From the NCBI GenBank assembly GCA_017484135.1, contig JAFUTQ010000104.1, positions 1 through 54,486 of the forward strand: 54,486 nt of DNA. Direction: 5' to 3'. A program made the position numbers and the translations under genes. Below are positions 1 through 49,295 of the stretch, in pieces (positions within the stretch are counted from its first letter, which is position 1; the number at the start of each line of letters is the position of its first letter). The notes beneath the pieces are model-generated. The model was not told the origin of the DNA and did no database searches. It saw only the letters and a list, made by a program, of their open reading frames with translations. Source of the stretch: Lachnospiraceae bacterium (GTDB taxonomy: Bacteria > Bacillota > Clostridia > Lachnospirales > Lachnospiraceae).

Positions 1-127
1 AGATAATCTGTCGGAGGGGATTTCTTTCCTCGAATAAAGCGTCGAATCTACATCAGATAATCTGGATGATTCGGCCGTTAGACGGCAAGACGCAACCATC
101 CAAAGTGACGGATGAGTCTCCATCTAA
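1..127. other. Unassigned edge sequence before the truncated binding-protein gene
   Basis: No coding signal is seen. All three forward frames fail to continue the binding protein that follows, and the frame used by that gene has a TAA at 125-127. The 10-mer AGATAATCTG occurs at 1-10 and again at 55-64. The homology of the downstream gene starts abruptly at about 128, so this stretch may be the far side of a rearrangement or an assembly-edge artefact. The sequence alone cannot separate these. Confidence 0.4.
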
Positions 128-883
128 TTTGACGGACAACAGGATATTGCGGTATACGGAGATTTCCCGGCAATCACCTGCAAGTCAAACGGCATTGATA
201 CGGTAATCATTGGAGCAGCAAACCACAAGCAATACTATGGATTTATTGCCAGCGAAGCATCCGGCATCACTTCCCCGGATCAGGTAAAGGGCTCCACGGT
301 TGGTGTATTTCAGGGAACGGTTGCTTCTTATGTATGGGAATCATTTGCTAACGCTTATGATATTGGCTCTGAAACCTCTGTTGTAAATGCTTCACCCACA
401 GATTCTGCGGCGATGCTGCTGTCCGGTGATTTGGATTTGTTCCCTACACCTTATTATAATGTGGTGGCGCTGGAAGAAGCCGGAACCGGTGTGAGAGTTG
501 AACTGTCATCCGCAGTAGAGGATGCTTATACACAGTTTTTTGTAGTAGCAAATAAGAGCTTTATTGAAGAGAACGAGGAAGTGGGTGTGGCGATTCAAAA
601 GGCATATATCAGAGCGTGGGAGAGAGCAAAAGAAAATCCTCAGCTGCTTTACGACGCACTGGCATCATCAAATTATACTGCAGAACAGATGAAGGCTTCC
701 TATGATTTTGATGAGACCTTTGAGTATTTCCATACAAATAACACAAAAGAGGATATTGCAAAGCTTCAGGATACCATAGACTTCCTTTATGACGGAGGCT
801 TTATCACAACAAAAGTTGATGCAAATGAGTTTGTAGACAATTCATATTATGAGAAAGCAGTGGAAGAACTGAAAGCAGAGTAA
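128..883 (+). CDS. ABC transporter substrate-binding protein, 5'-truncated (SsuA/TauA-like)
   Basis: This is the C-terminal two thirds of a periplasmic-type binding protein of the sulfonate/sulfate-ester family. The frame is open from 128, and the first recognisable residues (GQQDIAVYGDFPAI) align with GELDVAIVGDVPVF of the intact paralogue at 14178. The signal peptide, lipobox and about 125 N-terminal residues are absent, with a stop codon just upstream. The first internal ATG is at 413 and would give only 156 residues, too short for a working protein. Both paralogues end alike (FVDNSYYEKA and LVDTSYYEKA). The gene heads a block of sulfatase genes, so it probably bound sulfate esters or sulfonates for import. 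It is either a real 5' deletion or an artefact of the sequence edge. Its ATPase and permease partners are not present to its left. Confidence 0.75.
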   Translation, partial: FDGQQDIAVYGDFPAITCKSNGIDTVIIGAANHKQYYGFIASEASGITSPDQVKGSTVGVFQGTVASYVWESFANAYDIGSETSVVNASPTDSAAMLLSGDLDLFPTPYYNVVALEEAGTGVRVELSSAVEDAYTQFFVVANKSFIEENEEVGVAIQKAYIRAWERAKENPQLLYDALASSNYTAEQMKASYDFDETFEYFHTNNTKEDIAKLQDTIDFLYDGGFITTKVDANEFVDNSYYEKAVEELKAE

Positions 884-908
884 AGTAAAAACTGTTAATC
901 TGATCTGG

Positions 909-935
909 CTGTGCAGAGCTTTTTGCTTTGCACAG
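909..935 (+). promoter_or_regulatory. Intercistronic hairpin after the binding-protein gene
   Basis: CTGTGCAGAGC (909-919) pairs with GCTTTGCACAG (925-935) around a TTTTT loop, with one G-T pair. No U-tract follows, so it is not a classic terminator. It more likely protects the 3' end of the upstream message or attenuates it. A similar hairpin follows the second binding-protein gene at 15305-15333. Confidence 0.5.
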
Positions 936-985
936 TTATGGTATCTGATACGATATGTGTTTCTGACGAAGGAAAGGAAAAGCGC

Positions 986-3256
986 GTGAGTAAACAAAAA
1001 TTTGTTGGAACAATTGGAAAAACATTAAAGGATACAGATTTTCGTTTTGAGGAAATTGAGAGCAAGTCTGAGGGTAAGCCGAATGTGATTTATATTGTGC
1101 TGGATGATGTGGGATTTGCCCAGCTTGGCTGCTATGGTTCTGATATTAAAACCCCAAACATTGATCGATTGGCAAGCGGGGGACTGCGTTATAACAATTT
1201 TCATACCACTGCCATTTGCTCTGCTACAAGGGCAAGTCTTTTGACAGGGGCAAATCATCATTCTGCAGGGATCAGTGCCATCGTGGAGTCAGCAACAGGG
1301 CTTCCAAATGGACAGGAGCTGATTAAACCGGAGTATGCAACAATTGCTGAGGTGCTCAGGGAATACGACTACCATACTATCGCGATTGGTAAATGGCATC
1401 TGACAGATAAGAGATTTCGGACTGCGGCAGGTCCCTTTGATGGCTGGCCGCTGGGAAAGGGTTTTGATAATTATTATGGATTTTTGGATGCGGCGATTGA
1501 TCAGTGGAATCCGGTGCTTACCAGAGATAATTCAAGAGTGACACAGCCTAAGAAGGCTTCTGAGGGATATCATTTGACGGAGGATCTGACAGACAATGCA
1601 ATTCGATATGTCTATCAGCATCACAATGCATATCCCAAGCAGCCTTTTTTTCTCTATTTAGCATATGGCGCAATGCATGCGCCAATGCACGCACCCAAGG
1701 AATACATTGACAGGTATCGGGGGGCGTTTGATCAGGGCTGGGATGTTTTGCGCGAAAAATGGTTTGCAAGACAGAAAAAGCTTGGAGTTATTCCACAGGA
1801 TGCAGAGCTTACAGAGCGAAATGAAGTGGTTCCAGCGTGGGACAGCCTGAGCGAAGATGAGAAAAAAGTACAGGCAAGATTGATGGAAGTTTTTGCCGGA
1901 TTCTTAGAGCATACGGATGCCCAGATTGGACGATTGCTTGACTATCTGGAGGAGGCACACATCTTAGAAAATACCATGATTGTGCTGCTGTCGGATAATG
2001 GTGCCAGTGCTGAGGGTGGTCTGAATGGTCATTATAATCATTATACTTCGGTAGATATCGTAGAGGATTATTCGAGGGAAGCAGCGGATGTATTGAAACA
2101 TTATGAGACGGTAGGTGATGAGTATTCCTCCCCACACTATGGTATTGGCTGGGCAAATCTTGGAAACGTACCGTTCCAGTGGTATAAGACATGGGTACAT
2201 GAGGGAGGCATCAAGGATCCGCTGATTATCTATTATCCGGGACGAATCAAAGATAAGGGAGGGATCAGAAACCAGTTTCACCATGTAACAGACATTTCTC
2301 CTACCGTGCTGGATGTGCTTGGCTTTGAAAAGCCGGCGATTGTGAAAGGCGTTCCACAACAGCCCATGCATGGAATAAGTCTTGCCTATACCTTTGAAGG
2401 ACCTGATATTCCATCCAGAAAGCATGTACAATATTTTGAAATGGTGGGCAATCGTTCGATTTATAAAAATGGATGGAAGGCTGTTACCAATCATGCGTTT
2501 AAGAGCAGTTACGAGGATGATGTATGGGAGCTTTATCATACTGAGAAGGATTATTCCGAGAAGTATAACGTAGCAGCGGAATATCCGGAAAAAGTAAAGG
2601 AATTGGAGGAGACCTGGATTGCAGAGGCAGGGCGTTATGGGGTGTATCCATTAGGGCCGGGCTCTTTGATCGCCTCCAAAGAGGCAACTGCAGAAATTAC
2701 GATTCAGGAGCTTGTTCCGGAAAAAGTGTACACATATGAAAACGTGCGATACCCGTTTGAGATTCCGGAGGGTTTGCTGATAGCCAGAACATCGCACAGA
2801 ATTTTAGCGGATATTGAGCGGCAATCTCCAAAAGAGGAAGGCGTCATTCTGGCAAATGGAGATCGATTTGGAGGTTCTGTGCTGTATGTGAAGGACAACC
2901 ATTTAAAATATGTCTATAATCATTTGCAATCAGAGTATTATGAGATTGTTTCTGATGTTGAGTTGCCGGTTGGCAGGAACAGAGTGGAGGTTGTGTTTAA
3001 AAACCTGAGCTTCTGGGAGGCAGAGGTTTTCTTGAAGCTTAATGGAGCGGTAGTGGGCACAGCAAAGATTACAGAACTGAACAAATTTGCGTCCTTAATG
3101 TGCACTACATTAAAAGCAAATCCTCAGACTGCGATTGCAATAGACTATGAGATTCCGTTTGAATTTACTGGGAAGATTTTACATCTGGAAATCCGGATGG
3201 CTCCTGCTGGTATGACCACGGAGGAAATGCTGGAGGCATTTTTCAGACAAGATTAA
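986..3256 (+). CDS. Arylsulfatase-family sulfatase, Cys-type (paralogue A)
   Basis: This 756-residue hydrolase cleaves sulfate monoesters; its substrate is unknown. The GTG at 986 is chosen as start because GGAAAGG lies 8-14 bases upstream and because the N-terminus (KFVGTIGKTLKDT) then matches the paralogues. A longer frame to 911 would begin inside a hairpin. The expected sulfatase residues are present: D40 and D41, the formylglycine motif C78-S-A-T-R82, K136 and H138 in GKWHL, H231, D337 and N338 in SDNGAS, and K410. The last 150 or so residues form a second domain, rich in predicted beta strands (RFGG, LYVKDNHLKYVYN), as in long mycobacterial and Pseudomonas AtsA-type enzymes. No signal peptide is seen, so it is inferred to be cytoplasmic. 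By eye its closest relative here is paralogue G at 19947. Confidence 0.93.
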   Translation: MSKQKFVGTIGKTLKDTDFRFEEIESKSEGKPNVIYIVLDDVGFAQLGCYGSDIKTPNIDRLASGGLRYNNFHTTAICSATRASLLTGANHHSAGISAIVESATGLPNGQELIKPEYATIAEVLREYDYHTIAIGKWHLTDKRFRTAAGPFDGWPLGKGFDNYYGFLDAAIDQWNPVLTRDNSRVTQPKKASEGYHLTEDLTDNAIRYVYQHHNAYPKQPFFLYLAYGAMHAPMHAPKEYIDRYRGAFDQGWDVLREKWFARQKKLGVIPQDAELTERNEVVPAWDSLSEDEKKVQARLMEVFAGFLEHTDAQIGRLLDYLEEAHILENTMIVLLSDNGASAEGGLNGHYNHYTSVDIVEDYSREAADVLKHYETVGDEYSSPHYGIGWANLGNVPFQWYKTWVHEGGIKDPLIIYYPGRIKDKGGIRNQFHHVTDISPTVLDVLGFEKPAIVKGVPQQPMHGISLAYTFEGPDIPSRKHVQYFEMVGNRSIYKNGWKAVTNHAFKSSYEDDVWELYHTEKDYSEKYNVAAEYPEKVKELEETWIAEAGRYGVYPLGPGSLIASKEATAEITIQELVPEKVYTYENVRYPFEIPEGLLIARTSHRILADIERQSPKEEGVILANGDRFGGSVLYVKDNHLKYVYNHLQSEYYEIVSDVELPVGRNRVEVVFKNLSFWEAEVFLKLNGAVVGTAKITELNKFASLMCTTLKANPQTAIAIDYEIPFEFTGKILHLEIRMAPAGMTTEEMLEAFFRQD

Positions 3257-3287
3257 AAACAGTTCGGATGATAGAAGGGAGAACCCT

Positions 3288-5267
3288 ATGGGATATCGGT
3301 TTAATGGGGAGCGTAAGGAGGCTACAGGCTATACAGCTGCGTGGAATCAAAGTTTTCTTGAAAGAGAGGATTTAAAGCTGTTTACTCCCGGCGCGAAGGA
3401 ATGGGAACAGCTTCATGCCGACTGTTTGCTGGAAATGACAGATGATGTGATTTATGATACGGATGGTTCGGTATTGATTGATTATCGGCAGTTGGATTTT
3501 TTAAAGAATGAAAAGGTGGCAGACACGATAAATCCCAGTCTGAATCAGGTGGCAATTGGAAATTTGACTGCCGGAGTATTCAGTGTTGCAGGCAGGGATG
3601 TGATTCAAGTAAGAGGATTGCATGTCGGAAATGTCAATTTTGTCAGAGGAAAGACCGGTTGGATTATATTGGATACGCTATATCCGGAAACGGTGGCAAA
3701 AGCGGCTGTGATTCTGGCGGAAAAGGCATTGGGGGAAAATATCCGCGATCATGTGTCAGCGTTGCTTTATACGATCAATGCGACAGATGTATATTCCAAT
3801 TTCAGAGGTGGACTGCGTGGAATTTTGACAGAGGAGCAGATAAAAAATGTTCCGACCTACGGTCCGGCGGATTTTGAATTGCAGTTTACCAGAGAGAATG
3901 TCTATACCAATGTGGTAAATATGCGAAGACAGGTGTTCCAATTTGGTGTGGGACTTTGCTGTGATGAAAAAGGCAGCTTTACAGCGGGACTTGGCATAGG
4001 AAATACTACAAGAGGACGTCAGGATATGGAGACGATCAAATACATCGTGGAGCCGGACAAGCCATTTACAATAGATGGTCTGGAATTGGAATGTATATTT
4101 ACCAAAGGGATTGGCGCTCCGCCGGAGATGATCGTCTATTTCAAGGATTATAGAGCACTTTGGGTCAGTGAGGTCTGCTGCAGTATGCTGCATAATGTCT
4201 ATGCCCTGCGTGGTGGTCAGCCGAGAAATGCAAACCTTTGGTCAAAATATATTGAGGATGCGCTGGTACAATTCGGAGAGCGGACAGATGTAGTATTCCA
4301 AAGCAGTAACTGGTCTCATAAAAATACAGAAAGTCATCCGAATGCTGTGAGAGAATATCTGTTGCATACTGCAGCGATGTATAAGTTTATACATGATCGT
4401 ACCCTGGCTTTGGCAGGGCAGGGGTATCGAGCGGAGGAGATTGCGAAAAAATTAACGCTTCCGGAGGCATACCGCCATGAAATGTACACAAGACCATATT
4501 ATGGTTCGGTGCCGATTGCTGTCAGAACGGTTTATAATCAGTGGATTGGGTTTTATGACGGAAATCCTGTGAATATCAATCCGCAGACAAAAACGGAAAG
4601 AGCGGAGCAGTTCGTGGAATATATCGGATCTGAGGAAGCGGTATTTGAGAAGGCGTTTTCGGACTTTGAACGTGGCAGATATCAGCGCGCTTCGGAGGCA
4701 TTGGATTTATTGCTGCAATACAACCCGGACAATGAAAAAGCCAGATATCTTTATGCGGATTGTCTGGAGCAGCTTGGTTATCAGTCGGAGTGCTGTACAT
4801 GGAGAAATTCTTATTTGCGGGGAGCCTATGAGCTTCGCGAAGGAATCCGGATTCCGCTTCCGGAGAAGGATCGGGAGAGCAAGGAAGAATTTTTGAAGCT
4901 CTCCAAACAGATGTCCGCAGATTTTATGCTGGATTATCTGGGGATAGCTTTGGATTATGAAAAGGCAAAGGATGCAGATTTGTCATTCAATCTGGTTATT
5001 GAGGCAGAAGGGAGAGAGCCGGAATTGCATTTTGTGCATATTTATCAGGGTGCGCTGCTGCATACATTGGCGAAAAAGAAACAAAATGTACCCACAATTA
5101 CAGCGAGATCGGGTTCTTTGATGGCGTTTTCGAAGGGATATGACCATGCGCTGGAATATATTACCTCGGACTCAGAGGGAATTGTGAATCAGATTAAGGA
5201 TTTATTTGTTGATCTCAAACAAAATATTCTCTATCCGATACTGGAAAGGAAGGTTGCAAATGAGTAG
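3288..5267 (+). CDS. Alkylsulfatase-fold (SdsA1/BDS1-like) protein with degenerate metal site
   Basis: This 659-residue protein has the three-part layout of metallo-beta-lactamase-fold alkylsulfatases. The N-terminal catalytic fold includes INPSL near residue 85 and VIQVRG. Next come the dimerisation domain (PDNEKARYLYADCLEQLGYQ, then TWRNSYLRGAYELREG) and a C-terminal SCP2-like domain. The canonical THSHxDH motif reads TINATDV at 162-168, so three His become I, A and V while Asp is kept. TEAP reads IGAP at 275-278 and SHHW reads SSNW at 339-342; the Glu at 295 is kept. The usual two-zinc site should therefore not form, suggesting a pseudoenzyme, a binding protein or a new activity. AAGGGAGA precedes the ATG. 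Its end overlaps the next sulfatase start by 8 bases, so the two are translationally coupled. No signal peptide is seen. Confidence 0.88.
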   Translation: MGYRFNGERKEATGYTAAWNQSFLEREDLKLFTPGAKEWEQLHADCLLEMTDDVIYDTDGSVLIDYRQLDFLKNEKVADTINPSLNQVAIGNLTAGVFSVAGRDVIQVRGLHVGNVNFVRGKTGWIILDTLYPETVAKAAVILAEKALGENIRDHVSALLYTINATDVYSNFRGGLRGILTEEQIKNVPTYGPADFELQFTRENVYTNVVNMRRQVFQFGVGLCCDEKGSFTAGLGIGNTTRGRQDMETIKYIVEPDKPFTIDGLELECIFTKGIGAPPEMIVYFKDYRALWVSEVCCSMLHNVYALRGGQPRNANLWSKYIEDALVQFGERTDVVFQSSNWSHKNTESHPNAVREYLLHTAAMYKFIHDRTLALAGQGYRAEEIAKKLTLPEAYRHEMYTRPYYGSVPIAVRTVYNQWIGFYDGNPVNINPQTKTERAEQFVEYIGSEEAVFEKAFSDFERGRYQRASEALDLLLQYNPDNEKARYLYADCLEQLGYQSECCTWRNSYLRGAYELREGIRIPLPEKDRESKEEFLKLSKQMSADFMLDYLGIALDYEKAKDADLSFNLVIEAEGREPELHFVHIYQGALLHTLAKKKQNVPTITARSGSLMAFSKGYDHALEYITSDSEGIVNQIKDLFVDLKQNILYPILERKVANE

Positions 5268-7521
5268 GAGGAAATTTATCGGAACCATCGGAAGAACCGT
5301 AAAGGATACGGTTTATCGATATGAGGAAATCTCTGATACACCGAAAAATGCACCCAATGTCGTATATATTTTGTTAGATGATATGGGGTTTGCAGCACTT
5401 GGCTGCTATGGATCTACCATTCATACTCCCAATATTGATCGTTTGGCAAAGGAAGGACTTCGCTATAACAATTTTCATACGACAGCCGTTTGCTCTGCAA
5501 CGAGAGCCTGCCTGCTGACAGGTGCAAATCACCATAAAGTAGGAATTGCATCTTTGGTAGACTGGAAGTCAGGCTGTGACAATGGAATCGGACATATCGA
5601 CCCAGCATATGGAACCATTGCGGAGATTTTGCGTGAATTTGATTATTCCACCTTTGCAGCGGGAAAATGGCATTTGACGGACCAATATAATCCTGCCGGA
5701 CCATACGATACATGGCCTTTGGGAAAAGGCTTTGAGCGGTATTATGGATTCTTAAATCCGGGATGTGATCAATATCACCCTTATCTGGTACAGGACAATA
5801 CATTTGTTGCCCAGCCAAAGACGGTAAAAGAAGGCTATCACGCTTCGGAAGACATTACAGATCATGCGATCCATTTTATTTATGATCAGAAAAATTCATA
5901 TCCTCAAAAGCCGTTTTTCTTATATCTGGCATACGGGGCAACCCACTCTCCCCACCATGCGCCACAGGAATATATTGACAGATATAAAGGCAGGTTTGAT
6001 GTCGGCTGGGATGTGATTCGGGAGCAGTGGTTTGAAAATCAAAAACGAATCGGAATTATTCCCGAGGAGGCAGAGCTGACAGACCGGGCACCCTATGTGG
6101 ATGCATGGGAAACATTATCAGAGGATCAAAGGAAGGTATTTGTAAAGCATATGGAGGTGTATGCAGGCTTTTTGGAGCACACAGATGCACAGATCGGCAG
6201 ATTGATTTACTATCTGGAAAGCATTGATCAGTTGGACAATACAGTGATCGTATTTTTGTCTGATAATGGCGCCAGTGCCGAAGGTGGAAAGGAGGGGCGC
6301 TTTATCAGTTGCCGCGGCGGGGAAATTACTTCCGTGACAAATGAGGTGGAGCTGGCAATTGATCGTCTGGATGATCTCGGGGGTGAATATTCGCATCCCC
6401 ATTATCCGTCCGGCTGGGCAAATGTATGCAATACTCCATTTCAGTGGTACAAAATCTTTGCACACGAGGGCGGCGTGAAGGATCCGCTGATCATTCGCTA
6501 TCCGGGACTGATCAAGGATCCCGGAAGTGTGAGAACACAGTACCATCATGTCAGTGACCTTACACCCACAATTTTGGACATATTGGGTGTAAAAAAGCCG
6601 CAGCATTTAAAAGGAATCGCACAGAAACCATTTACGGGAACGAGTCTGAAATATACCTTGGAGGACGGACAGGCAGAGGATCGTAAACATGTGCAGTACT
6701 ATGAGGTGCTTGGCAATCGAGGTATCTATAAGGATGGCTGGAAAGCGGTGGTAAATCATACCTTTAGCGACAGCTATGAAGATGATATCTGGGAGCTTTA
6801 CCATGTGGAAACGGATTATTCAGAAAAGTATGATGTGGCAGAGCAGTATCCGGAAAAGCTTCATGAGCTGCAGGAGGAGTTCTTCTTGGAGGCAGGCAGA
6901 AATGATGTATTTCCAATGATGATGGGCTCTCCTCATGCATCCAGAGAAAAATGGTGGAGAGTACGGGGAGAGATTGTAATACCGGAAAAGAAAGTACATT
7001 TAAAGAATCTATTTCTACCCTATCAGCTGACAGGTGATGCGGTAATTCCGGTAGATGGCGTCAGCTATTCCATATCCATGAATGTAATTCAGGATCAAAA
7101 GAGTCAGGGCGTACTGTTTTCAAAGGGAGACCGCTTTGGCGGATTCAGCTTTTTTGTTCAGGATGAAAAATTGCATTTTGCGTATAATGCCAATGGAGTG
7201 AAGCTTTTTGATATTACCTCAGATGAAAAGCTTCCTGACGGAAGGGTAAATGTCAAATATGTATTTGATCGGCGCGGGTTGGATGATGCGGAAGTCACAT
7301 TGTATATTGACAATCGGGAGGCCGGGAAGGGCACAGTGGATCTGTTTTATTATCTCGCCACAGGAGGTATTACAATACGTGCCAATCCATATACAGAGGT
7401 AATTCCAAGCTATGAGGCTCCATTTGAATATACGGGCAAAATTGAAGATGTGATCCTTCATTCCTATGCATCTGGAGAGAAAGCAGCGGATTATTTAGAG
7501 CGGTTATTAAATGAGGAATAA
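5260..7521 (+). CDS. Arylsulfatase-family sulfatase, Cys-type (paralogue B)
   Basis: This is a 753-residue sulfatase. The ATG at 5260 is chosen over the longer frame to 5206 because GGAAAGGAAGG precedes it and the product then begins MSRRKFIGTIGRTV like its neighbours. The ATG lies inside the last codons of the alkylsulfatase-like gene. The formylglycine Cys is C78 in CSATR, followed by ACLL where the other copies have ASLL, giving a second Cys five residues after the first. DDMGF, GKWHLTDQ, GATHSPHH, SDNGASAEGG and GGVKDPL are all intact. It is closest to paralogue C; the two share SVRTQYHHVSDLTPT and GCDN/GCEN-GIGH. There is no signal peptide, so it should act on imported substrate. Confidence 0.93.
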   Translation: MSRRKFIGTIGRTVKDTVYRYEEISDTPKNAPNVVYILLDDMGFAALGCYGSTIHTPNIDRLAKEGLRYNNFHTTAVCSATRACLLTGANHHKVGIASLVDWKSGCDNGIGHIDPAYGTIAEILREFDYSTFAAGKWHLTDQYNPAGPYDTWPLGKGFERYYGFLNPGCDQYHPYLVQDNTFVAQPKTVKEGYHASEDITDHAIHFIYDQKNSYPQKPFFLYLAYGATHSPHHAPQEYIDRYKGRFDVGWDVIREQWFENQKRIGIIPEEAELTDRAPYVDAWETLSEDQRKVFVKHMEVYAGFLEHTDAQIGRLIYYLESIDQLDNTVIVFLSDNGASAEGGKEGRFISCRGGEITSVTNEVELAIDRLDDLGGEYSHPHYPSGWANVCNTPFQWYKIFAHEGGVKDPLIIRYPGLIKDPGSVRTQYHHVSDLTPTILDILGVKKPQHLKGIAQKPFTGTSLKYTLEDGQAEDRKHVQYYEVLGNRGIYKDGWKAVVNHTFSDSYEDDIWELYHVETDYSEKYDVAEQYPEKLHELQEEFFLEAGRNDVFPMMMGSPHASREKWWRVRGEIVIPEKKVHLKNLFLPYQLTGDAVIPVDGVSYSISMNVIQDQKSQGVLFSKGDRFGGFSFFVQDEKLHFAYNANGVKLFDITSDEKLPDGRVNVKYVFDRRGLDDAEVTLYIDNREAGKGTVDLFYYLATGGITIRANPYTEVIPSYEAPFEYTGKIEDVILHSYASGEKAADYLERLLNEE

Positions 7522-7538
7522 CAGTAAGAGGTGATGAA

Positions 7539-9800: not shown

Positions 9801-9851
9801 TTGTCGGGTTGAAGTCTGATGGGCAGGCTGATTGGTTGGAATCAGCAAAAG

Positions 9852-9897
9852 AGAGCGCTCAAATGGAAAAAGGCGTTTGAGTGCTCTTGAATTTTCA
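9852..9897 (+). terminator. Intrinsic terminator ending the first sulfatase block
   Basis: AGAGCGCTCAAA (9852-9863) pairs with TTTGAGTGCTCT (9876-9887) with one G-T pair and a 12-base loop. It is followed by a short T-rich tail (TGAATTTT). The tail is weak, so termination may be partial. Confidence 0.6.
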
Positions 9898-10018
9898 AAG
9901 GGTTGCTTAGAAAAAGCTATCATCGAAAAAAATAAAATAAATGAAAGGGGATGAAAATGATAGAATAATACCATAAAAATAAATTTTCTTACCGAAAATA
10001 CATATGATTACGTTTTCA

Positions 10019-10032
10019 GAAAAACGTTTTCA
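10019..10032 (+). promoter_or_regulatory. cre-like operator upstream of the TATAAT box
   Basis: GAAAAACGTTTTCA matches the cre consensus TGWNANCGNTNWCA except for the first two bases. It has a central CG and lies about 36 bases upstream of the -10 box at 10068, a position suited to activation or to competing with polymerase. CcpA or another LacI-family protein is the inferred binder. Confidence 0.4.
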
Positions 10033-10107
10033 AAAGCAGAAAAATGAATTTTTTGATATTTTCATACTATAATTTATCTTTCTGATCTAGGTGAAAAAGA
10101 GGATTAT

Positions 10108-10121
10108 TGATAACGATTTCA
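10108..10121 (+). promoter_or_regulatory. cre-like operator downstream of the TATAAT box
   Basis: TGATAACGATTTCA matches the cre consensus TGWNANCGNTNWCA at every defined base. It lies about 35 bases past the -10 box at 10068, inside the predicted leader, where a bound CcpA or LacI-type repressor would block elongation. A weaker half-match (GACGCTTTCA) follows near 10141-10150. Confidence 0.5.
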
Positions 10122-10246
10122 AAGATTGTATTTTACAAAAGACGCTTTCATGACTATTCTATATGTATTGCAGAAGAGAAAAAGAGCGAAAAAGGAGACT
10201 TATCCGACAAATTATGAAAAAAATGAACATAAAGGATGTGAACGAA

Positions 10247-11059
10247 ATGACAGAATCCAGAGAAATTGAAAAAAATAGTGAAAAGGATTTCATTATCAAT
10301 ATAGAGCATCTGAATAAGAAGTTTATAGTAGATAAGCAGCCGCTGGATGTATTAAAGAACATTAATTTGCAAGTTCGAAAGGGAGAATTTATTACCATAG
10401 TGGGACATAGTGGTTGCGGCAAGAGCACGCTCCTTAAGATTATTTGCGGGTTAGTGGGGTATGAGGATGGTGTCGTTGAACGAAATGGGCATGCGGTAGT
10501 AGGACCGGGGCCGAAATGCGGCATGGTATTTCAAGAGCACCGCCTGCTTCCGTGGTTAAAAATTAAAGACAATGTAGGATTTGGATTGAAAGATTTGTCC
10601 AAGGAAGAGCGGGAGGTCAACGTAAAAAAACATTTGGAGTTGGTTGGTCTGGCGGGCTTTGAAAATAGTTATCCGGCACAATTATCAGGGGGGATGTCGC
10701 AACGAGCTGCGATTGCAAGGGGACTTGCGAACAATCCGACCATACTTTTATTAGATGAGCCCTTTGGTGCACTGGATGCACTGACCCGGATTCAGATGCA
10801 GAAGGAAATACTTAGCATTCAGGAAAAGGAAAATACAACGATGGTCATGGTTACCCATGATATTGACGAGGCAATTTATCTCGGTGACCGGGTAGTAGTC
10901 ATGTCGGCAAGGCCGGGAGAGATAAAGGATATTATTACCACAGATCCCATTGAGTCAAAAAGCAGAGGGAGTGCAACCTTTGCAAGCTATAAAAAAACAA
11001 TTTATAGTTACTTCTTTGAGGATTCACAAGAAGACTATGAAGTGGAGTACAATATTTAA
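10247..11059 (+). CDS. ABC transporter ATP-binding protein (SsuB/TauB/AtsC type)
   Basis: This is the ATPase of an importer for sulfonates or sulfate esters. It has Walker A GHSGCGKST, the signature LSGGMSQRAAIARGL, Walker B ILLLDEPFGALDA and the H-loop VTHDIDEA. Upstream in-frame starts exist at 10163, 10214 and 10223. The ATG at 10247 is preferred because AGGA lies 11 bases before it and the product (270 residues) is nearest the family's usual 255-270. The permease gene follows after 15 bases, and the binding lipoprotein comes one sulfatase gene later at 14178. Linkage to sulfatases rather than to sulfonate monooxygenases favours sulfate esters as cargo, as in the AtsRBC system of Pseudomonas putida. 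Expression is probably controlled by the cre-like sites upstream. Confidence 0.9.
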   Translation: MTESREIEKNSEKDFIINIEHLNKKFIVDKQPLDVLKNINLQVRKGEFITIVGHSGCGKSTLLKIICGLVGYEDGVVERNGHAVVGPGPKCGMVFQEHRLLPWLKIKDNVGFGLKDLSKEEREVNVKKHLELVGLAGFENSYPAQLSGGMSQRAAIARGLANNPTILLLDEPFGALDALTRIQMQKEILSIQEKENTTMVMVTHDIDEAIYLGDRVVVMSARPGEIKDIITTDPIESKSRGSATFASYKKTIYSYFFEDSQEDYEVEYNI

Positions 11060-11074
11060 GGAGGGAATGTGAAG

Positions 11075-11851
11075 ATGAAAAAAAAATCGATTCAAAAAAT
11101 TTTATTAGGGCTCATTCTTCCAATTTTAATTGTAGTTGCGTGGTTTTTGGCAACGAACTATGGAAATATACCCTCCGGAATTTTGCCGACGATTACAAAG
11201 GTTAAAGATTCATTTCAAGAATTGGTTCATACCGGAACGTTGCAGAAAGACTTGCTGGTCAGTTTTGGAAGAGTGGTGAAAGGATTTTTGATGGCCTCAC
11301 TGTTGGGGGGGGTGCTGGGGTCAGTCATGGGAATGTTTGAACCGGTAAGAGATCTATTTGCTCCCATCATTACGGTAGTTCGTCAGATTCCGATTATTGC
11401 ATGGATACCGTTGATTATTCTTTGGTGTGGGATTGGGGAAGTGTCCAAAGTCGTGATCATCGTGATTGCAGCCTTCTTTCAGGTGTTGGTTAATACGGAG
11501 AGTGGTATTTCGGGAACGCCGGGCAAATATGTGGAAGTAGCGCAGCTATACAAATTAAGTCCATGGGAGACTTTTTCAAAGGTATATCTGCCTCATGCAA
11601 TTCCACAGATATTGGTAGGGTTGAAATTAGCATTATCTGTTTCTTGGATGGCGGTGGTGGCATCGGAGATGTTGGCTGCAACCAGTGGAATCGGATATAG
11701 AATGAGCAATGCAAGAAGTATGATGCGTGCAGACATTGTGATTGTGTGTATGATTATTATCGGAATTGTCGGTATCGTAATGGATCGGCTGATTGGATGG
11801 CTTTTTGGACTGCTTACACCATGGCAGAAATATGAGAAGAAGGAGAAATAG
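11075..11851 (+). CDS. ABC transporter permease (SsuC/TauC/AtsB type)
   Basis: This is a 258-residue integral membrane permease. The ATG at 11075 is used because AAGGAGGG sits about 8 bases before it; a GTG at 11069 is too close to that site. There are about six hydrophobic segments, the first being ILLGLILPILIVVAWFLA. The cytoplasmic EAA-type coupling loop reads EVAQLYKLSPWETFSKVYLP, which contacts the ATPase. Later segments include WMAVVASEMLAATSGIGY, conserved in this family. It should form the homodimeric channel with the ATPase at 10247 and receive substrate from the lipoprotein at 14178. The gene stops 3 bases before the next sulfatase start. Confidence 0.9.
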   Translation: MKKKSIQKILLGLILPILIVVAWFLATNYGNIPSGILPTITKVKDSFQELVHTGTLQKDLLVSFGRVVKGFLMASLLGGVLGSVMGMFEPVRDLFAPIITVVRQIPIIAWIPLIILWCGIGEVSKVVIIVIAAFFQVLVNTESGISGTPGKYVEVAQLYKLSPWETFSKVYLPHAIPQILVGLKLALSVSWMAVVASEMLAATSGIGYRMSNARSMMRADIVIVCMIIIGIVGIVMDRLIGWLFGLLTPWQKYEKKEK

Positions 11852-11854
11852 ATT

Positions 11855-14131: not shown

Positions 14132-14177
14132 TACGCCAAAGCGTATGTCATTATATTATTTTAGGAGGAAAAAGAAA

Positions 14178-15275: not shown

Positions 15276-15304
15276 TGTATCATAACATTTTCACCAGAAA
15301 ATCA

Positions 15305-15333
15305 GACAGTCTGGATTACATATCCGGACTGTC
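15305..15333 (+). promoter_or_regulatory. Intercistronic hairpin after the binding-lipoprotein gene
   Basis: GACAGTCTGG (15305-15314) pairs with CCGGACTGTC (15324-15333), with one T-G pair and a 9-base loop. The following sequence, AAGTATTATATT, is not a run of T, so full termination is unlikely. By position it may stabilise the binding-protein message or reduce read-through into the next sulfatases. Confidence 0.5.
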
Positions 15334-15359
15334 AAGTATTATATTGAGGAGGTATCGCA

Positions 15360-17618: not shown

Positions 17619-17635
17619 AGGTTGGAGGAAACAAA

Positions 17636-19903
17636 ATGCGAAGAACAGAATTTACCGGTACGGTGGGGCGAACCATGGCAGAGACCAGGTATCAATATCA
17701 TACCGTGGATACAGACCCGAAGGATGCGCCCAATGTAATCTATATTTTGTTGGATGACATGGGCTTTGCCCAGCTGGGCTGCTATGGATCATCCATTGCA
17801 ACGCCAAACATTGACAGACTGGCGAAGGAGGGACTCAGGTACAATAATTTCCATACAACGGCAGTCTGCTCTGCCACAAGAGCCTCCCTGCTGACCGGTG
17901 CAAATCATCATATGGCGGGGATTGCAAGTCTCTGTGAGCTGCGGACCGGTTGTGACAATGGAATCGGACACTTAAAACCGGAGTATGCGACCATAGCAGA
18001 AATCTTAAAGGAGTACGGGTATGCCACGTTCTGCACAGGAAAATGGCACCTGGCTGCAAATCAGGGAGCACCGGGACCGGTGGACGGATGGCCGCTGCAG
18101 AAGGGCTTCGACCGGTATTACGGATTTTTACAGGGAGAAAATGATCAGTATCATCCACATCTGGTGCAGGATAACACGGCGGTGGCACAGCCTAAATCGG
18201 TTGAGGAAGGCTATCACTTTTCCGAGGATATCGTAGATCATGCGATTGATTATCTGTTTGAACACCAGATGAATTTTCCGGAACAGCCATTCTTTTTGTA
18301 TCTTGCGTTTGGGGCAATGCATACTCCGCATCACGCACCGAAGGAATATATCGACCGCTATCGTGGAAAATTTGATGCCGGCTGGGACGAGGTGCGGCAG
18401 CAATGGTTTGAGAATCAGAAACGGATCGGTATCATTCCTCCCGAGGCAGAATTGACAGAAAAAAATGAATATGTGAGAGACTGGGCCGCGCTCAATGAAA
18501 AGGAAAAAGCAGTATATGCCCGTGAGATGGAGGCATTTGCAGGGATGCTGACCCATACGGACGATCAGATCGGGCGGCTGATCGCTTATCTGGAGGAGAG
18601 CGATCAGCTTGATCATACAATGATCGTATTCTTGTCAGACAACGGCGCAAGCGCCGAGGGTGGTATTGATGGAAGATTCAACGCAATGCGGGGGCAGGAT
18701 GTGACAGTCAGAAGTGAGGGAGAGATCGAATATGCCTATGAGCATCTGGATGAGATTGGGACGGAGCTGGCATTTAATCACTACCCCACGGGTTGGGCAA
18801 ATTGCGGCAATACACCGTTTCAATGGTATAAGATCTGGGCGCATGAGGGAGGTATCAAGGATCCTCTGATTATCCGCTATCCCAAAGGGATTGAACAGCT
18901 CGGGGGTGTCCGGTCACAGTATCATCATGTCAGCGATCTGACCCCTACCGTGCTTGAGGTAATCGGTGTGGACAAGCCGGAATATGTAAAGGGTGTGAAA
19001 CAGAAACCGTTTACCGGAGTAAGCATGCAGTATTCCTTCAATGCACCGGAAGCCGGGAGTCAGAAACACATCCAGTACTATGAGGTGCATGGAAACCGGG
19101 GCATTTACAAGGATGGCTGGAAGGCAGTGGTAAATCACACGTTTGTGGAGGATTATGAAAAGGATGAGTGGGAGCTTTACCATGTGGAGGTGGACTACTC
19201 GGAGAAGTACAATGTTGCAGAGAAATATCCGGAGAAATTACGGGAGCTGCAGGCCGATTTTGAGTATGAGGCAGGAAAATATGGTGTTTATCCGATGCTG
19301 CGTTTTGCAATGCATGGAAAGCCGGAGAATCTGTCCCGTATGTACGGCGACCGGATGACGCTGCCGGAGAAGCGGGTAACATTTCACAAGGTGCTGCATG
19401 CATTTGATCTGGTATATGACAGGAATATTCAGTCACAGGCCGTAAATCATACGGTTGTGGCACGGATCGTGCGGGAGACTGCGGAGGATGAGGGCGTGCT
19501 TTACAGCAACGGACAGCGGTTCGGCGGCATCAGCTTTTATGTGAAGGATAACCGTCTGAAGTATGTGTACAATGCAAACAAAGCAGCGTATTACGAGGCA
19601 GTTTCCGAGACAGAGCTGCCGGTTGGCGAAGTGACAGTAGGATACCGGTTTGTGCGGGATCAAGATCACGCCACTGTGACATTGTTTGTGAATGGAAAAG
19701 AGGTCGGACAGACCGTGGTGGAACAGTTCTGCTACATGATTGGATTTACCTCCACAGTGGGAGACAATCGCTACACACCGGTAACGCCGGACTATGAGGT
19801 TCCGTTTGCATTTTCCGGCAGAATCGAGGAGCTGACATTGTATCAGGCTCCCACTACAGTGAGCAGCAGGGAGGAGCTGCTGAAGCTGTTGTCGGTCGAA
19901 TAA
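17636..19903 (+). CDS. Arylsulfatase-family sulfatase, Cys-type (paralogue F)
   Basis: This 755-residue sulfatase lies 17 bases after paralogue E, with TTGGAGGAAA before its ATG. The active-site Cys is C78, with DDMGF, GKWHLAAN, FGAMHTPHH, SDNGASAEGG and GGIKDPL intact. The N-terminus has the shared pattern (FTGTVGRTMAETRYQ). The metal-site flanks and the region after the DN pair (IDGRFNAMRGQ) differ from the other copies, which suggests a different substrate pocket. Codon use is richer in G and C at third positions than in G or A-D. No signal peptide is seen; it is probably co-transcribed with the importer. Confidence 0.93.
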   Translation: MRRTEFTGTVGRTMAETRYQYHTVDTDPKDAPNVIYILLDDMGFAQLGCYGSSIATPNIDRLAKEGLRYNNFHTTAVCSATRASLLTGANHHMAGIASLCELRTGCDNGIGHLKPEYATIAEILKEYGYATFCTGKWHLAANQGAPGPVDGWPLQKGFDRYYGFLQGENDQYHPHLVQDNTAVAQPKSVEEGYHFSEDIVDHAIDYLFEHQMNFPEQPFFLYLAFGAMHTPHHAPKEYIDRYRGKFDAGWDEVRQQWFENQKRIGIIPPEAELTEKNEYVRDWAALNEKEKAVYAREMEAFAGMLTHTDDQIGRLIAYLEESDQLDHTMIVFLSDNGASAEGGIDGRFNAMRGQDVTVRSEGEIEYAYEHLDEIGTELAFNHYPTGWANCGNTPFQWYKIWAHEGGIKDPLIIRYPKGIEQLGGVRSQYHHVSDLTPTVLEVIGVDKPEYVKGVKQKPFTGVSMQYSFNAPEAGSQKHIQYYEVHGNRGIYKDGWKAVVNHTFVEDYEKDEWELYHVEVDYSEKYNVAEKYPEKLRELQADFEYEAGKYGVYPMLRFAMHGKPENLSRMYGDRMTLPEKRVTFHKVLHAFDLVYDRNIQSQAVNHTVVARIVRETAEDEGVLYSNGQRFGGISFYVKDNRLKYVYNANKAAYYEAVSETELPVGEVTVGYRFVRDQDHATVTLFVNGKEVGQTVVEQFCYMIGFTSTVGDNRYTPVTPDYEVPFAFSGRIEELTLYQAPTTVSSREELLKLLSVE

Positions 19904-19946
19904 TAGAGGTAATCAGTGTGATGCCACCTATGCACAGGAGGAAAGT

Positions 19947-22226
19947 ATGGCAGATAAGAAAATATTTACAGGAACAGTGGGGAGATGCATTTCTGAAACA
20001 AACTTTTCATTTGATATAAAAGAAAGTCCTTCAAAGGGCAAACCAAATGTTGTCTATATTGTATTAGATGATACCGGTTTTGCGCAGTTGGGCTGTTATG
20101 GTTCTACCATTAACACCCCAAATATTGATAAGATTGCTTCCCGGGGACTTCGTTATAATAACTTTCATACGACGGCAATCTGCTCTGCAACGAGAGCATC
20201 GCTTCTTACCGGAGCAAATCATCATTCGGTGGGAATCAATACAACGACCGAAGGGAGAACCGGACTCGGCAACGCACAGGGTGGAATTGATCCACAGTAT
20301 GCTACGCTGGCAGAGATTTTACGAGAATATGATTATCGAACAATGGCAGTTGGTAAGTGGCATTTGAGTGCAATGGACGAGCGTACCGCAGCAGGACCAT
20401 ATCATAACTGGCCTCTTGGAAAGGGCTTTGATACTTACTATGGTTTTCTGGCAGCGGATATGGATCAGTGGAATCCGGTTCTCACGAGAGATAATACGAT
20501 GGTGGAACAACCCAAGAAGGCTTCGGAGGGATATCATCTTTCCGAGGATCTTACAGAAAATGCGATTCAATATGTTTATAATCATGAATTGTCATATCCG
20601 GAACAGCCTTTTTTCTTATATCTTGCTTATGGCGCTATGCATACACCGCATCATGCACCAAAGGAGTATATTGATCGTTATCGTGGAAAATTTGATGCAG
20701 GTTGGGATAAAATAAGGGAGGAATGGTTTGAAAATCAGAAAAAGCTGGGCATAGTGAATGATACGGCAGAGTTGACGGAGCGAAACGAACACGTACCGGC
20801 CTGGGATACACTTTCTGATGATCAGAAAAAAGCATATGCGAGATATATGGAGGTGTTTGCAGGATTTTTGGAACATACGGATGCACAGATCGGGAAATTT
20901 ATTGATTTTCTTGACAAAAGAGGAATTTATGATAATACAATCATTGTTTTGATTTCTGATAACGGTGCCAGTGCAGAGGGTGGAAAGGATGGACATTTCA
21001 ATCTTAATACAAGTATGGATGTAACGGACAATTATCCGCGAGATGTTGAATTGGTACTTGAAAATTATGAGACAATTGGAGATGAGTATTCTCAGCCCCA
21101 TTATCCCACTGGCTGGGCAAATGCAGGTAATACACCATTCCAATGGTATAAGCAGTGGACATATGAGGGTGGAGTGAAGGATCCGTTAATAATTAGTTAT
21201 CCGAATTACATCAAAGAAAAGGGAGGAATACGAAGACAGTTTAACCATGTATCGGATATTACTCCCACGGTTCTGGATCTGCTGGGATTTGAAAAACCGG
21301 AGTTTATTCGTGGGGTGCCGCAAAGAACACTGCAAGGAATCAGCTTTAAAAATACGTTGAATGATGAGCGGGCAGAGGGAAAGAAAAAAGTCCAATATTT
21401 CGAAATGCATGGAAACCGTTCTATTTATAAGGATGGATGGAAAGCGGTCGTTAATCACATGTTTCATAAGACTTTTGATGAGGATGAGTGGGAGCTTTAT
21501 CATGTAGATGAGGATTACTCAGAAAAATATAACGTGGCAGATCGCTATCCGGAGAAACTGAAGGAGTTACAGGAAGAATGGTTAATTGAGGCTGCAAAGT
21601 ATGGTGTTTTTCCCATGCCGGATCGTGGATTGCTGGCGACGAGAGATTCCCTGAAGGAGTATTTAAGCATGATTTCTCTTCCGGCAGTACATCTGGAGTA
21701 TAATGATATTATTTATCCGTATGATCTGGTAACTGATCCTGGTATTGGTACAAGAACCGGAACAATTATGGTGGTTTTGAATCGAAGAAATCAAAATGAA
21801 AAAGGGGTGCTTGTCGCAAAGGGAGACCGATTTGGCGGTGTGTCTTTATATGTTAAGGATAATCACATAAACTATGTGTATAATTTGGATTCTGATATTT
21901 ACTGGACAATAGAATCAGATTTTGAGCTACCACTTGGTGAGGTGGACATTCAGGCAGACTTTACAGTTACAGGAAAAGAACAAGCAACGGCAGAATTGTT
22001 TGTTAATGGAAATTCTGTTGGTTTAACGGAAATCAGTAAATTTTTCTATACGACAGGAGCCGGAGCGCCAACCTCACTGAAGGTCAACAAACATATATCG
22101 GTATATGATGAGGCTTATGCAGCACCGTTTACCTATGACGGAGAAATAAAAAAAGTGATTTTTGATTTCCCCGCGACGACTGTTCAGGCAGAGGAAGAAA
22201 TAGCGAAAGATTTAGTACATGATTGA
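19947..22226 (+). CDS. Arylsulfatase-family sulfatase, Cys-type (paralogue G)
   Basis: This 759-residue sulfatase starts after CACAGGAGGAAAGT. The formylglycine Cys is C79; DDTGF, GKWHLSAM, GAMHTPHH, SDNGASAEGG and GGVKDPL are present. It is the sister of paralogue A: both have QWNPVLTRDN, QPKKASEGYHL and GIRRQFNHV/GIRNQFHHV. The A-G lineage is therefore represented once in each transcription block. It is the last sulfatase of the array. A 172-base gap with its own promoter separates it from the maturase gene. Confidence 0.93.
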   Translation: MADKKIFTGTVGRCISETNFSFDIKESPSKGKPNVVYIVLDDTGFAQLGCYGSTINTPNIDKIASRGLRYNNFHTTAICSATRASLLTGANHHSVGINTTTEGRTGLGNAQGGIDPQYATLAEILREYDYRTMAVGKWHLSAMDERTAAGPYHNWPLGKGFDTYYGFLAADMDQWNPVLTRDNTMVEQPKKASEGYHLSEDLTENAIQYVYNHELSYPEQPFFLYLAYGAMHTPHHAPKEYIDRYRGKFDAGWDKIREEWFENQKKLGIVNDTAELTERNEHVPAWDTLSDDQKKAYARYMEVFAGFLEHTDAQIGKFIDFLDKRGIYDNTIIVLISDNGASAEGGKDGHFNLNTSMDVTDNYPRDVELVLENYETIGDEYSQPHYPTGWANAGNTPFQWYKQWTYEGGVKDPLIISYPNYIKEKGGIRRQFNHVSDITPTVLDLLGFEKPEFIRGVPQRTLQGISFKNTLNDERAEGKKKVQYFEMHGNRSIYKDGWKAVVNHMFHKTFDEDEWELYHVDEDYSEKYNVADRYPEKLKELQEEWLIEAAKYGVFPMPDRGLLATRDSLKEYLSMISLPAVHLEYNDIIYPYDLVTDPGIGTRTGTIMVVLNRRNQNEKGVLVAKGDRFGGVSLYVKDNHINYVYNLDSDIYWTIESDFELPLGEVDIQADFTVTGKEQATAELFVNGNSVGLTEISKFFYTTGAGAPTSLKVNKHISVYDEAYAAPFTYDGEIKKVIFDFPATTVQAEEEIAKDLVHD

Positions 22227-22296
22227 TAAGAAATCGCTGTTTGTGGACTCGAGGTCTTCTAGCAAGAGCAGAAAAAGATAATGTTATATGAGAGGG

Positions 22297-22325
22297 TTGA
22301 CCAGCGTTTTGTAACTGTGTAGTAT
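22297..22325 (+). promoter_or_regulatory. Promoter of the sulfatase-maturase gene
   Basis: TTGACC at 22297-22302 and TAGTAT at 22320-22325 are separated by 17 bases, a good sigma-A arrangement 70 bases before the maturase start codon. This allows the maturase to be made independently of the long sulfatase transcript. Confidence 0.55.
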
Positions 22326-22398
22326 AAAAGAGGGGGAGTAGTGCGGAATCAATGGTTCTGTACCGTTGTGATAGAATTAACACAGGAGGAAAACAATT

Positions 22399-23568
22399 AT
22401 GCCCGCAGCGAGTATCCTGATCAAGCCTGCTTCGGCAAACTGCAATATTGACTGCACCTATTGTTTCTATAAGTGTCTCAGCAGTAACCGGGAGCAGTAC
22501 AGTCTCGGCTTTATGAAGGATGATATTCTGGAAAAACTGGTCATCCGGGCATTTGAATATGCCGATTACCATGTGACATTTGCATTTCAGGGAGGCGAAC
22601 CGACTCTTGCCGGTCTGCCTTTCTTTCGTCGTGTTCTGGAGCTGCAGCAAAAGTATAATACAAAAGGAATCGCGGTGGAGAACACCATACAGACCAACGG
22701 TCTTTTGATCGACCGGGAGTGGGCGCAGTTTTTGGCCGAGAATCACATCCTTGCAGGGGTGTCTCTGGATGGTCCGAAGAAGCTGCATGACCGATATCGA
22801 AGGGATGCCAAGGGGGCTCCAACCTTTGATCGTGTGATGCAGACCATTTCGCTGTTTCATGAGTATCGGGTGGATTACAATATTCTGAGTGTGATCACGG
22901 CAGAAACGTGTGAGAAGGCATCCTATCTTTATCACTTTTATCAGCGCAATCAGTTTTCCTATGTGCAGCTGATCCCATGTATGGATGAGCGGGGAAGAAA
23001 TACCGGGATGGACGGCGCGTCAGACTTTCGCGTTACTCCGGAAAAATACGGAAAGTTTCTGTGTGAGTTGTTCGATCTGTGGTATGACGATTTCATGCAG
23101 AGCCAAAATGTAAACACACAAGCCTATGGGCAGCAGCCTATGGATATCCGTATGTTTTCCAATCTTGCCCAGATGGCGGCGGGATATCCGGCAGAGGAAT
23201 GCGGAATGAACGGACACTGCACCTGCTATTTTGTGGTAGAAGGGGACGGAAGCGTTTATCCCTGTGATTTCTATTGTCTGGATGCGTGGAAGCTTGGGAC
23301 GGTGGAGAACTCTTTTGGCGATATGATTCGTTCCGACCGGGCATTGGAATTTATCGAAGAATCCCATCCGGTTGCGGCACGCTGCAGGTCGTGTGCCTAT
23401 TATACCCTGTGCCGGGGCGGATGCCGCAGATGGCGGGAGGGTGCAGATGGCGGCGTATCCCTCAACGCCCTGTGTCCGGCTTATGAAATGTTTTTTGCAC
23501 ATACAGAGAAGAGAATCCAGGAGCTTGGGAAGATTATTTTGCGGCGGTATGGGGCGTATAGGAAGTAG
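22399..23568 (+). CDS. Anaerobic sulfatase-maturating enzyme (anSME), radical SAM/SPASM
   Basis: This 389-residue radical SAM enzyme oxidises the active-site Cys of sulfatases to formylglycine. The N-terminal cluster motif is C15-NID-C19-TY-C22, preceded by LIKPASANC as in the Clostridium perfringens enzyme. The SPASM part binds two more iron-sulfur clusters; cysteines occur in ECGMNGHCTC, YPCDFYC, RCRSCAYYTLCRGGC and LCPAYE. The Asp in YPCDFY, near residue 290, corresponds to the proposed catalytic base. AGGAGGAAAAC precedes the ATG. It is the only maturase seen beside seven CSATR sulfatases, so it is the likely activator of all of them. It acts in the cytoplasm under anaerobic conditions. 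Confidence 0.95.
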   Translation: MPAASILIKPASANCNIDCTYCFYKCLSSNREQYSLGFMKDDILEKLVIRAFEYADYHVTFAFQGGEPTLAGLPFFRRVLELQQKYNTKGIAVENTIQTNGLLIDREWAQFLAENHILAGVSLDGPKKLHDRYRRDAKGAPTFDRVMQTISLFHEYRVDYNILSVITAETCEKASYLYHFYQRNQFSYVQLIPCMDERGRNTGMDGASDFRVTPEKYGKFLCELFDLWYDDFMQSQNVNTQAYGQQPMDIRMFSNLAQMAAGYPAEECGMNGHCTCYFVVEGDGSVYPCDFYCLDAWKLGTVENSFGDMIRSDRALEFIEESHPVAARCRSCAYYTLCRGGCRRWREGADGGVSLNALCPAYEMFFAHTEKRIQELGKIILRRYGAYRK

Positions 23569-23622: not shown

Positions 23623-23644
23623 CCAAAGTGTCACTATATTTTAG

Positions 23645-23686
23645 GCGCGAAACTTATTTCGGAATGACTTCCGACGACATGGTGAT
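23645..23686 (+). repeat. Diverged copy of the dispersed double-hairpin repeat
   Basis: The core GGAATGACTTCCGACGACATGG matches the copy at 40206-40285 (GGAATGGCTTCCGATGACTTGG) with a few changes, and flanking bases also agree. Most of the second hairpin is missing. It sits in the leader of the next gene, just before its AGGAGG. Confidence 0.5.
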
Positions 23687-23699
23687 AGGAGGATGTCTC

Positions 23700-37462: not shown

Positions 37463-37674
37463 TGGGTTGTAAAAGCAAGAATTTTCAAGATGATGATATC
37501 TGATGATTGAAACGAAATTATCATGGAAAGACGTGCAAGCTTCCGGTACACGTTTGGCAAGAAAATTTGCTTTGAAATCAGTATAAGCGATGGCATTGAC
37601 ATTTGCAAGAAGGATTCAATAATTTATAAAAATTTAATAAATATTAAATGGAAATTGCTGCCGCGAAAATAGGT
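37463..37674. other. Gene-free AT-rich stretch
   Basis: No ORF with a credible start and no recognisable RNA are seen here. TTGACA occurs at 37596-37601 but lacks a good -10 at normal spacing. The stretch separates the Rpn-like gene from the repeat copy and pyrC leader. Confidence 0.4.
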
Positions 37675-40203: not shown

Positions 40204-40205
40204 GA

Positions 40206-49293: not shown

Positions 49294-49295
49294 GA

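Follow-up and report, generated by a model that had tools for sequence, protein, structure and literature searches.

Among the described systems that resemble the locus reported here, the Pseudomonas arylsulfatase AtsA is a cytoplasmic Cys-type S1 sulfatase that stands beside an ATP-binding cassette (ABC) importer of the SsuA/NMT1 type, AtsRBC, which we take to be its partner for the uptake of sulfate esters. Others are the alkylsulfatases SdsA1, SdsAP and Pisa1, and the exported mucin/glycan sulfatases of gut Bacteroides, which are matured by an anaerobic sulfatase-maturating enzyme (anSME). We analysed 54,486 nucleotides from a Lachnospiraceae bacterium (contig JAFUTQ010000104.1 of assembly GCA_017484135.1; this whole stretch is hereafter the window), in which seven intact Cys-type sulfatases (positions 986–22226) are accompanied by an SsuA-type importer, an SdsA-like protein and an anSME. 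With a probability of roughly 0.62, the locus represents an anaerobic organosulfate-scavenging system that would take up small sulfate esters, desulfate them in the cytoplasm and pass the sulfate to assimilation.

The ats arylsulfatase logic recurs here in a related form that is anaerobic and expanded. As in Pseudomonas, S1 sulfatases predicted to be cytoplasmic lie beside an SsuA/NMT1-type ABC importer, AtsRBC being likened by type and not by sequence. Unlike the AtsA system, with its single enzyme of 536 residues, the window encodes seven paralogues of 752–759 residues that carry an extra C-terminal β-rich domain, an anSME with no formylglycine-generating enzyme (FGE) found, and the SdsA-like protein. 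With the Bacteroides enzymes the seven share PF00884; in contrast to them, they have no hydrophobic N-terminus, and the gut-symbiont mucin sulfatase 7all ranked below the P. aeruginosa enzyme. The array is not wholly new, because both Cys-type sulfatases in the cytosol and CxAxR motifs have precedents: in the excerpts considered, a review describes Cys-type sulfatases as typically cytosolic (PMC3920027), and CxAxR motifs are on record, alanine replacing proline in 369 of 4058 sulfatases (PMC5066984). In view of the former excerpt, the implication of a first-pass annotation made from the sequence alone, that the cytosolic placing is unusual, is not supported. The gut desulfation papers among the matches listed, PMC9631449 included, centre on Bacteroides and Parabacteroides enzymes. 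Titles and abstract beginnings among the matches listed from open-licence PubMed Central gave no account of this locus or of zinc-less SdsA proteins.

The open frames of the seven sulfatases (S1–S7) are not due to chance, as judged from their lengths, the CSATR motif in 7/7 and PF00884 E-values of 2.9e-61 to 2.6e-67. Each carries the C/S-x-P/A-x-R motif together with the metal and catalytic residues of S1 sulfatases. In an alignment with the P. aeruginosa arylsulfatase 1hdh, the ten positions that we take to form the AtsA active site (D13, D14, C51, R55, K113, H115, H211, D317, N318 and K375) were invariant in all seven and in 20/20 sequences of a wider set. This enzyme was also the closest solved structure by sequence (E 5.6e-82), and P. 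aeruginosa arylsulfatase gave the best fold matches to a predicted model of S3 (predicted local distance difference test, pLDDT, 82.1); S1_4 is presumably the SulfAtlas label for the AtsA-like subfamily. The additional β-rich domain was seen in the predicted model, and Laminin_G_3 matched the C-terminal domain in three of the seven, always under the cut-off. No hydrophobic N-terminus was detected in S1–S7 by a hydropathy scan, which is not a dedicated signal-peptide predictor (best 12-residue Kyte–Doolittle mean 0.5–1.3, versus 2.4 for the intact binding protein SBP2). Since the sulfatases lack signal peptides, import would have to precede hydrolysis. On these points the first-pass annotation, which had described seven intact, signal-less Cys-type sulfatases of nearly equal length and placed import first, was borne out. 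The remaining six enzymes are 51–75% identical to S3, and the S2/S3 pair has a dN of 0.17 at a dS of about 1.6, which is near saturation. Fourteen PF00884 matches were counted in the assembly, eight of them close relatives of the set (seven in the window and one on contig C61).

The importer ATPase, permease and SBP2 all matched their expected Pfam families. SBP2 has an LTGC motif close to its N-terminus, its nearest solved sequence is SsuA (3uif, E 8.4e-14), and it scored 107.9 of the required 163.5 bits with SsuA_fam versus 54.3 bits with the taurine model. By curated cut-offs no importer part belongs to SsuABC, TauABC or NrtABC, to which they are related in type only. The ATPase reached the threshold of none of the 25 NCBIfam models listed (best, SaoA, 242.6 of 360 bits), and the permease came closest to SaoP (186.6 of 295 bits; SsuC, 145.7 of 347). 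Of the importer earlier labelled SsuABC/AtsRBC-like, SBP2 is nearer to SsuA, the ATPase lies nearer to the nitrate model than to the sulfonate one, and no Ssu cut-off was reached. Specificity for an unrelated ligand was not seen, no part reaching a nitrate, taurine or sulfonate cut-off. In genome G171, an importer of the window type (ATPase 77%, permease 66% identity) adjoins two intact SdsA-type alkylsulfatases without an S1 sulfatase. The S1 loci and this SdsA locus have sulfate esters in common, and the linkage is therefore evidence, though not proof, that the importer serves this substrate class. Of five further SdsA loci retrieved that have no S1 sulfatase, none showed the window-type importer; two of these five SdsA proteins have a lipoprotein-like N-terminal segment, as judged by eye.

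The maturase contains the radical S-adenosylmethionine (SAM) and SPASM domains PF04055 and PF13186, exceeded the cut-off of the anSME model TIGR03942 and reached 417.5 of the 441 bits required by NF010321, thus remaining under that cut-off. It is the only anSME above the TIGR03942 cut-off in the assembly, where three weaker matches fall below it. An FGE search, positive in 4/14 control genomes, found none in this assembly, whose completeness of 83% leaves the absence of an FGE or a further anSME unproven. The proposal of one maturase for seven enzymes is supported by these searches.

In the proposed pathway, SBP2 would capture small sulfate esters outside the cell, and ATPase and permease would import them. 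The lone anSME would convert the motif cysteine to formylglycine in all seven sulfatases, which, each probably tuned to different esters, would liberate sulfate in the cytosol. The sulfate would then reach cysteine and homocysteine synthesis through proteins whose genes lie outside the array, namely CysD, CysN, an AprA-type reductase and a sulfite reductase-like protein. Contig C113 carries MoeB/ThiF-type, AprA-type, CysD and CysN genes above cut-offs and CysK-like, O-acetylhomoserine sulfhydrylase-like and sulfite reductase-like genes under them, which would permit assimilation of the freed sulfate. The SdsA-like protein probably does not hydrolyse alkyl sulfates; if it binds sulfate esters, it may serve as their carrier, as a sensor or as a scaffold. 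The sequence itself shows which genes are present, that the catalytic residues are intact and the N-termini not hydrophobic, that the linkage recurs, that the assembly has one maturase and that zinc ligands were lost; ester import, specialisation of the enzymes, assimilation as the purpose and any role of the SdsA-like protein are inferred.

The gene set recurs elsewhere, as had been anticipated. Named genomes yielded 576 relatives, of which the best 80 were kept. Twenty of these (L051–L069 and L076) entered the cassette counts; their records are labelled as Clostridia-type taxa, L064 only as "bacterium", and the other 60 were not clostridial or were more distant. For cassette and SdsA counts, matches below 120 bits were disregarded, and several stretches end at contig ends. 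As in the window, the same families were clustered in these clostridial cassettes: an ATPase in 16/20, a permease in 17/20, a binding protein in 18/20, an anSME in 12/20 (two of them only 36–39% identical) and an SdsA homologue in 10/20 (one a fragment). Each cassette has between one and four sulfatases, compared with seven here; two frames in L076 are parts of one split gene. In a tree of 46 sulfatases, from which L078–L130, duplicates and matches below 600 residues were left out, S6 grouped with L051–L053 (support 100/100), S7 with a gene of L055 (100/98), S5 with L067 and L069 (99/98) and S1 with L061 (100/100). S2 and S3 were sisters without a counterpart, and the placement of S4 was weakly supported. 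The seven enzymes thus form six lineages, with S2/S3 as a younger pair and close counterparts of four lineages in other clostridia, which indicates that the array collects several lineages found elsewhere in small numbers. In a genome of the same family (G229, contig C22; L131 and L132), four sulfatases with CSPTR/CSPSR motifs are more distantly related, and an anSME-like gene is also distant (38% identity).

The least expected part of the locus is the SdsA-like protein. It resembles SdsA1, SdsAP and Pisa1 in its homology over nearly the full length, in its fold and in having the dimerisation and C-terminal domains (PF14863 and PF14864). Foldseek matched its model (pLDDT 70.6) to 2cg2 with an E-value of 6.8e-38, but at a template-modelling score of 0.52 and a root-mean-square deviation of 21.5; no beta-lactamase-domain match was obtained at E 0.001. 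The zinc ligands of SdsAP are given as H192, H194, D196, H197, E303, E322 and H367 in an excerpt of PMC5426288. Subtracting 23 throughout, an offset counted manually on the alignment, gives H169, H171, D173, H174, E280, E299 and H344 of SdsA1, positions at which the window protein reads I, A, D, V, G, E and S. Unlike in the three alkylsulfatases, five of the seven ligands are thus replaced, D173 and E299 being kept, and the H-x-H-x-D-H, E, E, H site is lost. The same five places are lost in homologues from L061 and L065, whereas the zinc site persists in 23/23 other compared homologues, with D in place of E299 in four. The three proteins form a clade with a support of 100/100 in a tree that included the zinc-motif columns and left out duplicates and matches below 480 residues. 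They have in common a four-residue insertion with a conserved N and R, which adjoins the old site, and 26 clade-specific columns; 38 columns are invariant across all 26 SdsA rows. The window protein is 46% and 41% identical to the other two full-length members, and its end branch is long (0.83 versus a median of 0.26). Each of the three genes adjoins sulfatases, with a binding-protein gene at the cluster start that is a fragment in the window. The L065 genome has three further SdsA homologues, apparently L067, L150 and L152, all with the zinc site (D for E299 in L152); in the window's genome the zinc-less protein is the only SdsA homologue found.

A first scan of named genomes with the SdsA-like protein found nothing. 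Among 397 sampled genomes of the family, searched at E 1e-80 with no more than three candidates scored in each, the highest-scoring protein from any genome but the window's own reached 608.9 bits versus 1214.6 bits for the protein itself, and among 391 sampled genomes of the class only the window's own protein passed 1e-185. A wider spread of the zinc-less clade was accordingly rejected, L061 and L065 being the only others found in these scans.

What the zinc-less proteins do can be stated only tentatively. They possibly constitute a new functional, non-hydrolytic class of the alkylsulfatase fold that evolved inside clostridial multi-sulfatase loci and binds imported esters to hand them over, or to scaffold or regulate the sulfatases; ester binding is considered because the equivalent of R312, presumably the sulfate-binding arginine of SdsA1, is kept. 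Rather less likely, the clade retains another catalysis, via another metal or via a new D-x-x-x-N-x-R-G-G loop. The kept equivalents of D173, E299 and R312 and the conserved insertion beside the old site would suit such a reaction, but model residues 166–171 have a pLDDT below 50, and the geometry of the site is unreadable. Simple decay of the gene, to which the five replaced ligands, the long end branch and the finding of three members only could be attributed, appears improbable in view of the intact 659-residue frame, the identities among the members, the loss of the same five ligands, the common insertion with N and R, the clade-specific and invariant columns, and the sulfatases and binding protein next to all three genes. 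The first-pass annotation, with its term "degenerate alkylsulfatase", had missed that the protein belongs to a conserved three-member clade.

For the array as a whole, organosulfate scavenging is favoured by the active sites intact in 7/7 enzymes, their non-hydrophobic N-termini, the S2/S3 dN well below dS, the recurrent linkage, the importer next to SdsA enzymes in G171, the one anSME above its cut-off with no FGE found, P. aeruginosa arylsulfatase as the nearest structure and the assimilation genes. Several observations weigh against it. The four sulfatases scanned with NCBIfam were far under every cut-off, and hydrolases with formylglycine (FGly) can also act on phosphonates or phosphodiesters. 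For the ATPase, the nitrate model gave a better score (229.7 of 291.8 bits) than the sulfonate model SsuB did (190.5 of 395). Two importer types were distinguished by their ATPases, that of the window in 9/20 loci and that of C61 in 7/20. The ATPase is missing from the stretches covered of L058 (a 4.2-kb contig), L061, L065 and L076, and those of L061 and L065, the loci with the nearest SdsA-like relatives, also lack permease and anSME. A single permease and a single intact binding protein form a narrow entrance for seven enzymes. Finally, no riboswitch was matched in an Rfam search of 128–23568, so control by sulfur is unproven. It is unlikely, though worth weighing, that the main product is instead the freed alcohol or phenol, host or dietary conjugates being deconjugated for carbon, electron acceptors or detoxification. 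Seven divergent enzymes would suit many aglycones, and by their record titles six of the 20 related loci come from ruminant sites (L056, L062, L065, L067, L069 and L076) and one from a rabbit source (L051, "Lapin"), places that are rich in plant phenols and conjugates. Against this, no aglycone-degrading gene is among the annotated array genes in the window, the count being restricted to the window and not extended to the relatives' neighbourhoods, and assimilatory sulfate genes are present. That the seven are FGly hydrolases of phosphonate monoesters or phosphodiesters is very improbable: they share the superfamily, and the four scanned gave 95–101 bits with the PehA model, but its cut-off is 900, the arylsulfatase model scored higher (122–133 bits, yet under its cut-off of 481), the nearest structure is AtsA, and an SdsA homologue is near in half of the related loci.

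All genes of the array lie on the plus strand throughout 128–23568 (Table 1). The 362-bp gap between S3 and the ATPase gene possibly marks the start of a second transcription unit, with a putative promoter. Riboswitch control of the array was rejected, given zero Rfam matches in 128–23568.

Table 1. Features of the sulfatase array and its borders, in window coordinates.
Feature	Position	Strand	Evidence and remarks
Dispersed repeat	1..141	.	Contig start; adjoins SBP1 gene
SBP1, C-terminal fragment, NMT1/SsuA-type; without start or signal peptide	128..883	+	PF09084 E 8e-16
Sulfatase S1, CSATR, 756 aa, GTG start	986..3256	+	PF00884 E 2.9e-61; 66% identity to sulfatase in L061
SdsA-like protein, 659 aa, zinc site lost	3288..5267	+	PF14863 E 1.6e-45, PF14864; SdsA1 E 2.9e-93
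Sulfatase S2, 753 aa	5260..7521	+	PF00884 E 3.7e-62; start overlaps SdsA-like gene end by 8 bases
Sulfatase S3, 753 aa	7539..9800	+	PF00884 E 7.2e-65; 75% identity to S2
AT-rich gap	9801..10162	.	GC 30% versus 45% in array; stops in frame
Importer ATPase	10163..11059	+	PF00005 E 5.6e-33
Importer permease	11069..11851	+	PF00528 E 8.1e-27
Sulfatase S4, 758 aa	11855..14131	+	PF00884 E 2.4e-63
SBP2, intact lipoprotein-type binding protein, 365 aa	14178..15275	+	PF09084 E 4.1e-17
Sulfatase S5, 752 aa	15360..17618	+	PF00884 E 9.5e-64
Sulfatase S6, 755 aa	17636..19903	+	PF00884 E 2.6e-67
Sulfatase S7, 759 aa	19947..22226	+	PF00884 E 5.8e-63
anSME, anaerobic sulfatase maturase	22399..23568	+	TIGR03942 368.9 bits, cut-off 349.45

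In a draft assembly of 2.55 Mb and 116 contigs (2.9% contaminated), the window makes up contig C116; because its base 1 is the contig start, the array may extend further. SBP1 lacks about 119 N-terminal residues; by blast, it matches the last 245 residues of SBP2 with 35.5% identity. Copies of the 141-bp repeat occur at C3:1–141 (100%), C91:1–139 (99%) and C84:2475–2626 (92%), with flanks that diverge past the repeat. Its insertion into SBP1 would be the simplest reading of these sequences; alternatively, the truncation may reflect an assembly join. The gene list of the first-pass annotation was otherwise correct, but its first binding protein (128–883) proved to be this fragment, and the eighth sulfatase locus on C61 had been missed. 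The C61 locus (G000 C61:18000–37000, or L031; 3641–17242, minus strand) encodes, in transcription order, a binding protein, a methylthioadenosine/S-adenosylhomocysteine (MTA/SAH) nucleosidase, MatE, a radical SAM protein, a permease, an ATPase, the sulfatase, MetK, a NifH-like protein and two nitrogenase-component-1-like proteins, all listed nitrogenase-type models being under their cut-offs. By analogy, this locus is reminiscent of methylthio-alkane reductase loci. In L053:3–4632, an importer, a radical SAM gene (39%) and a nucleosidase gene (47%) as in the C61 locus lie a few kb from the sulfatase cassette.

Relatives of the sulfatase set were found at E 1e-100 in 0/7 other genomes of the genus, five of which have a completeness of 90% or more. 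Starting at clpB (25524), the flank matched in 7/7 sister genomes with 69–82% DNA identity (pieces above 600 bits), and contamination of the bin, considered as an alternative source of the array, was thus not supported. Upstream of clpB, each of six sister stretches (5.5–10 kb) has different genes with weak cross-matches of 23–42%, whereas their ClpB proteins are 89.8–93.5% identical to that of the window, indicating that the array sits at a variable site. It has a GC content of 44.8% versus 49.2% in the rest of the window and was probably gained horizontally. Directly 3' of the anSME gene, positions 23628–25397 encode an AAA-ATPase_like and PDDEXK_9 protein. Three matches to GA-cis RNA exceeded the gathering score elsewhere in the window, at 37668–37747 (minus strand), 40199–40289 (plus) and 49289–49378 (plus).

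If organosulfate scavenging is the function of the locus, gut-type bacteria would have a second, testable means of freeing sulfate from host or plant conjugates and gaining sulfur: a clostridial route that begins with import and relies on seven enzymes and one maturase. The zinc-less SdsA clade offers a natural experiment on the capabilities of the alkylsulfatase fold once its metals are gone.

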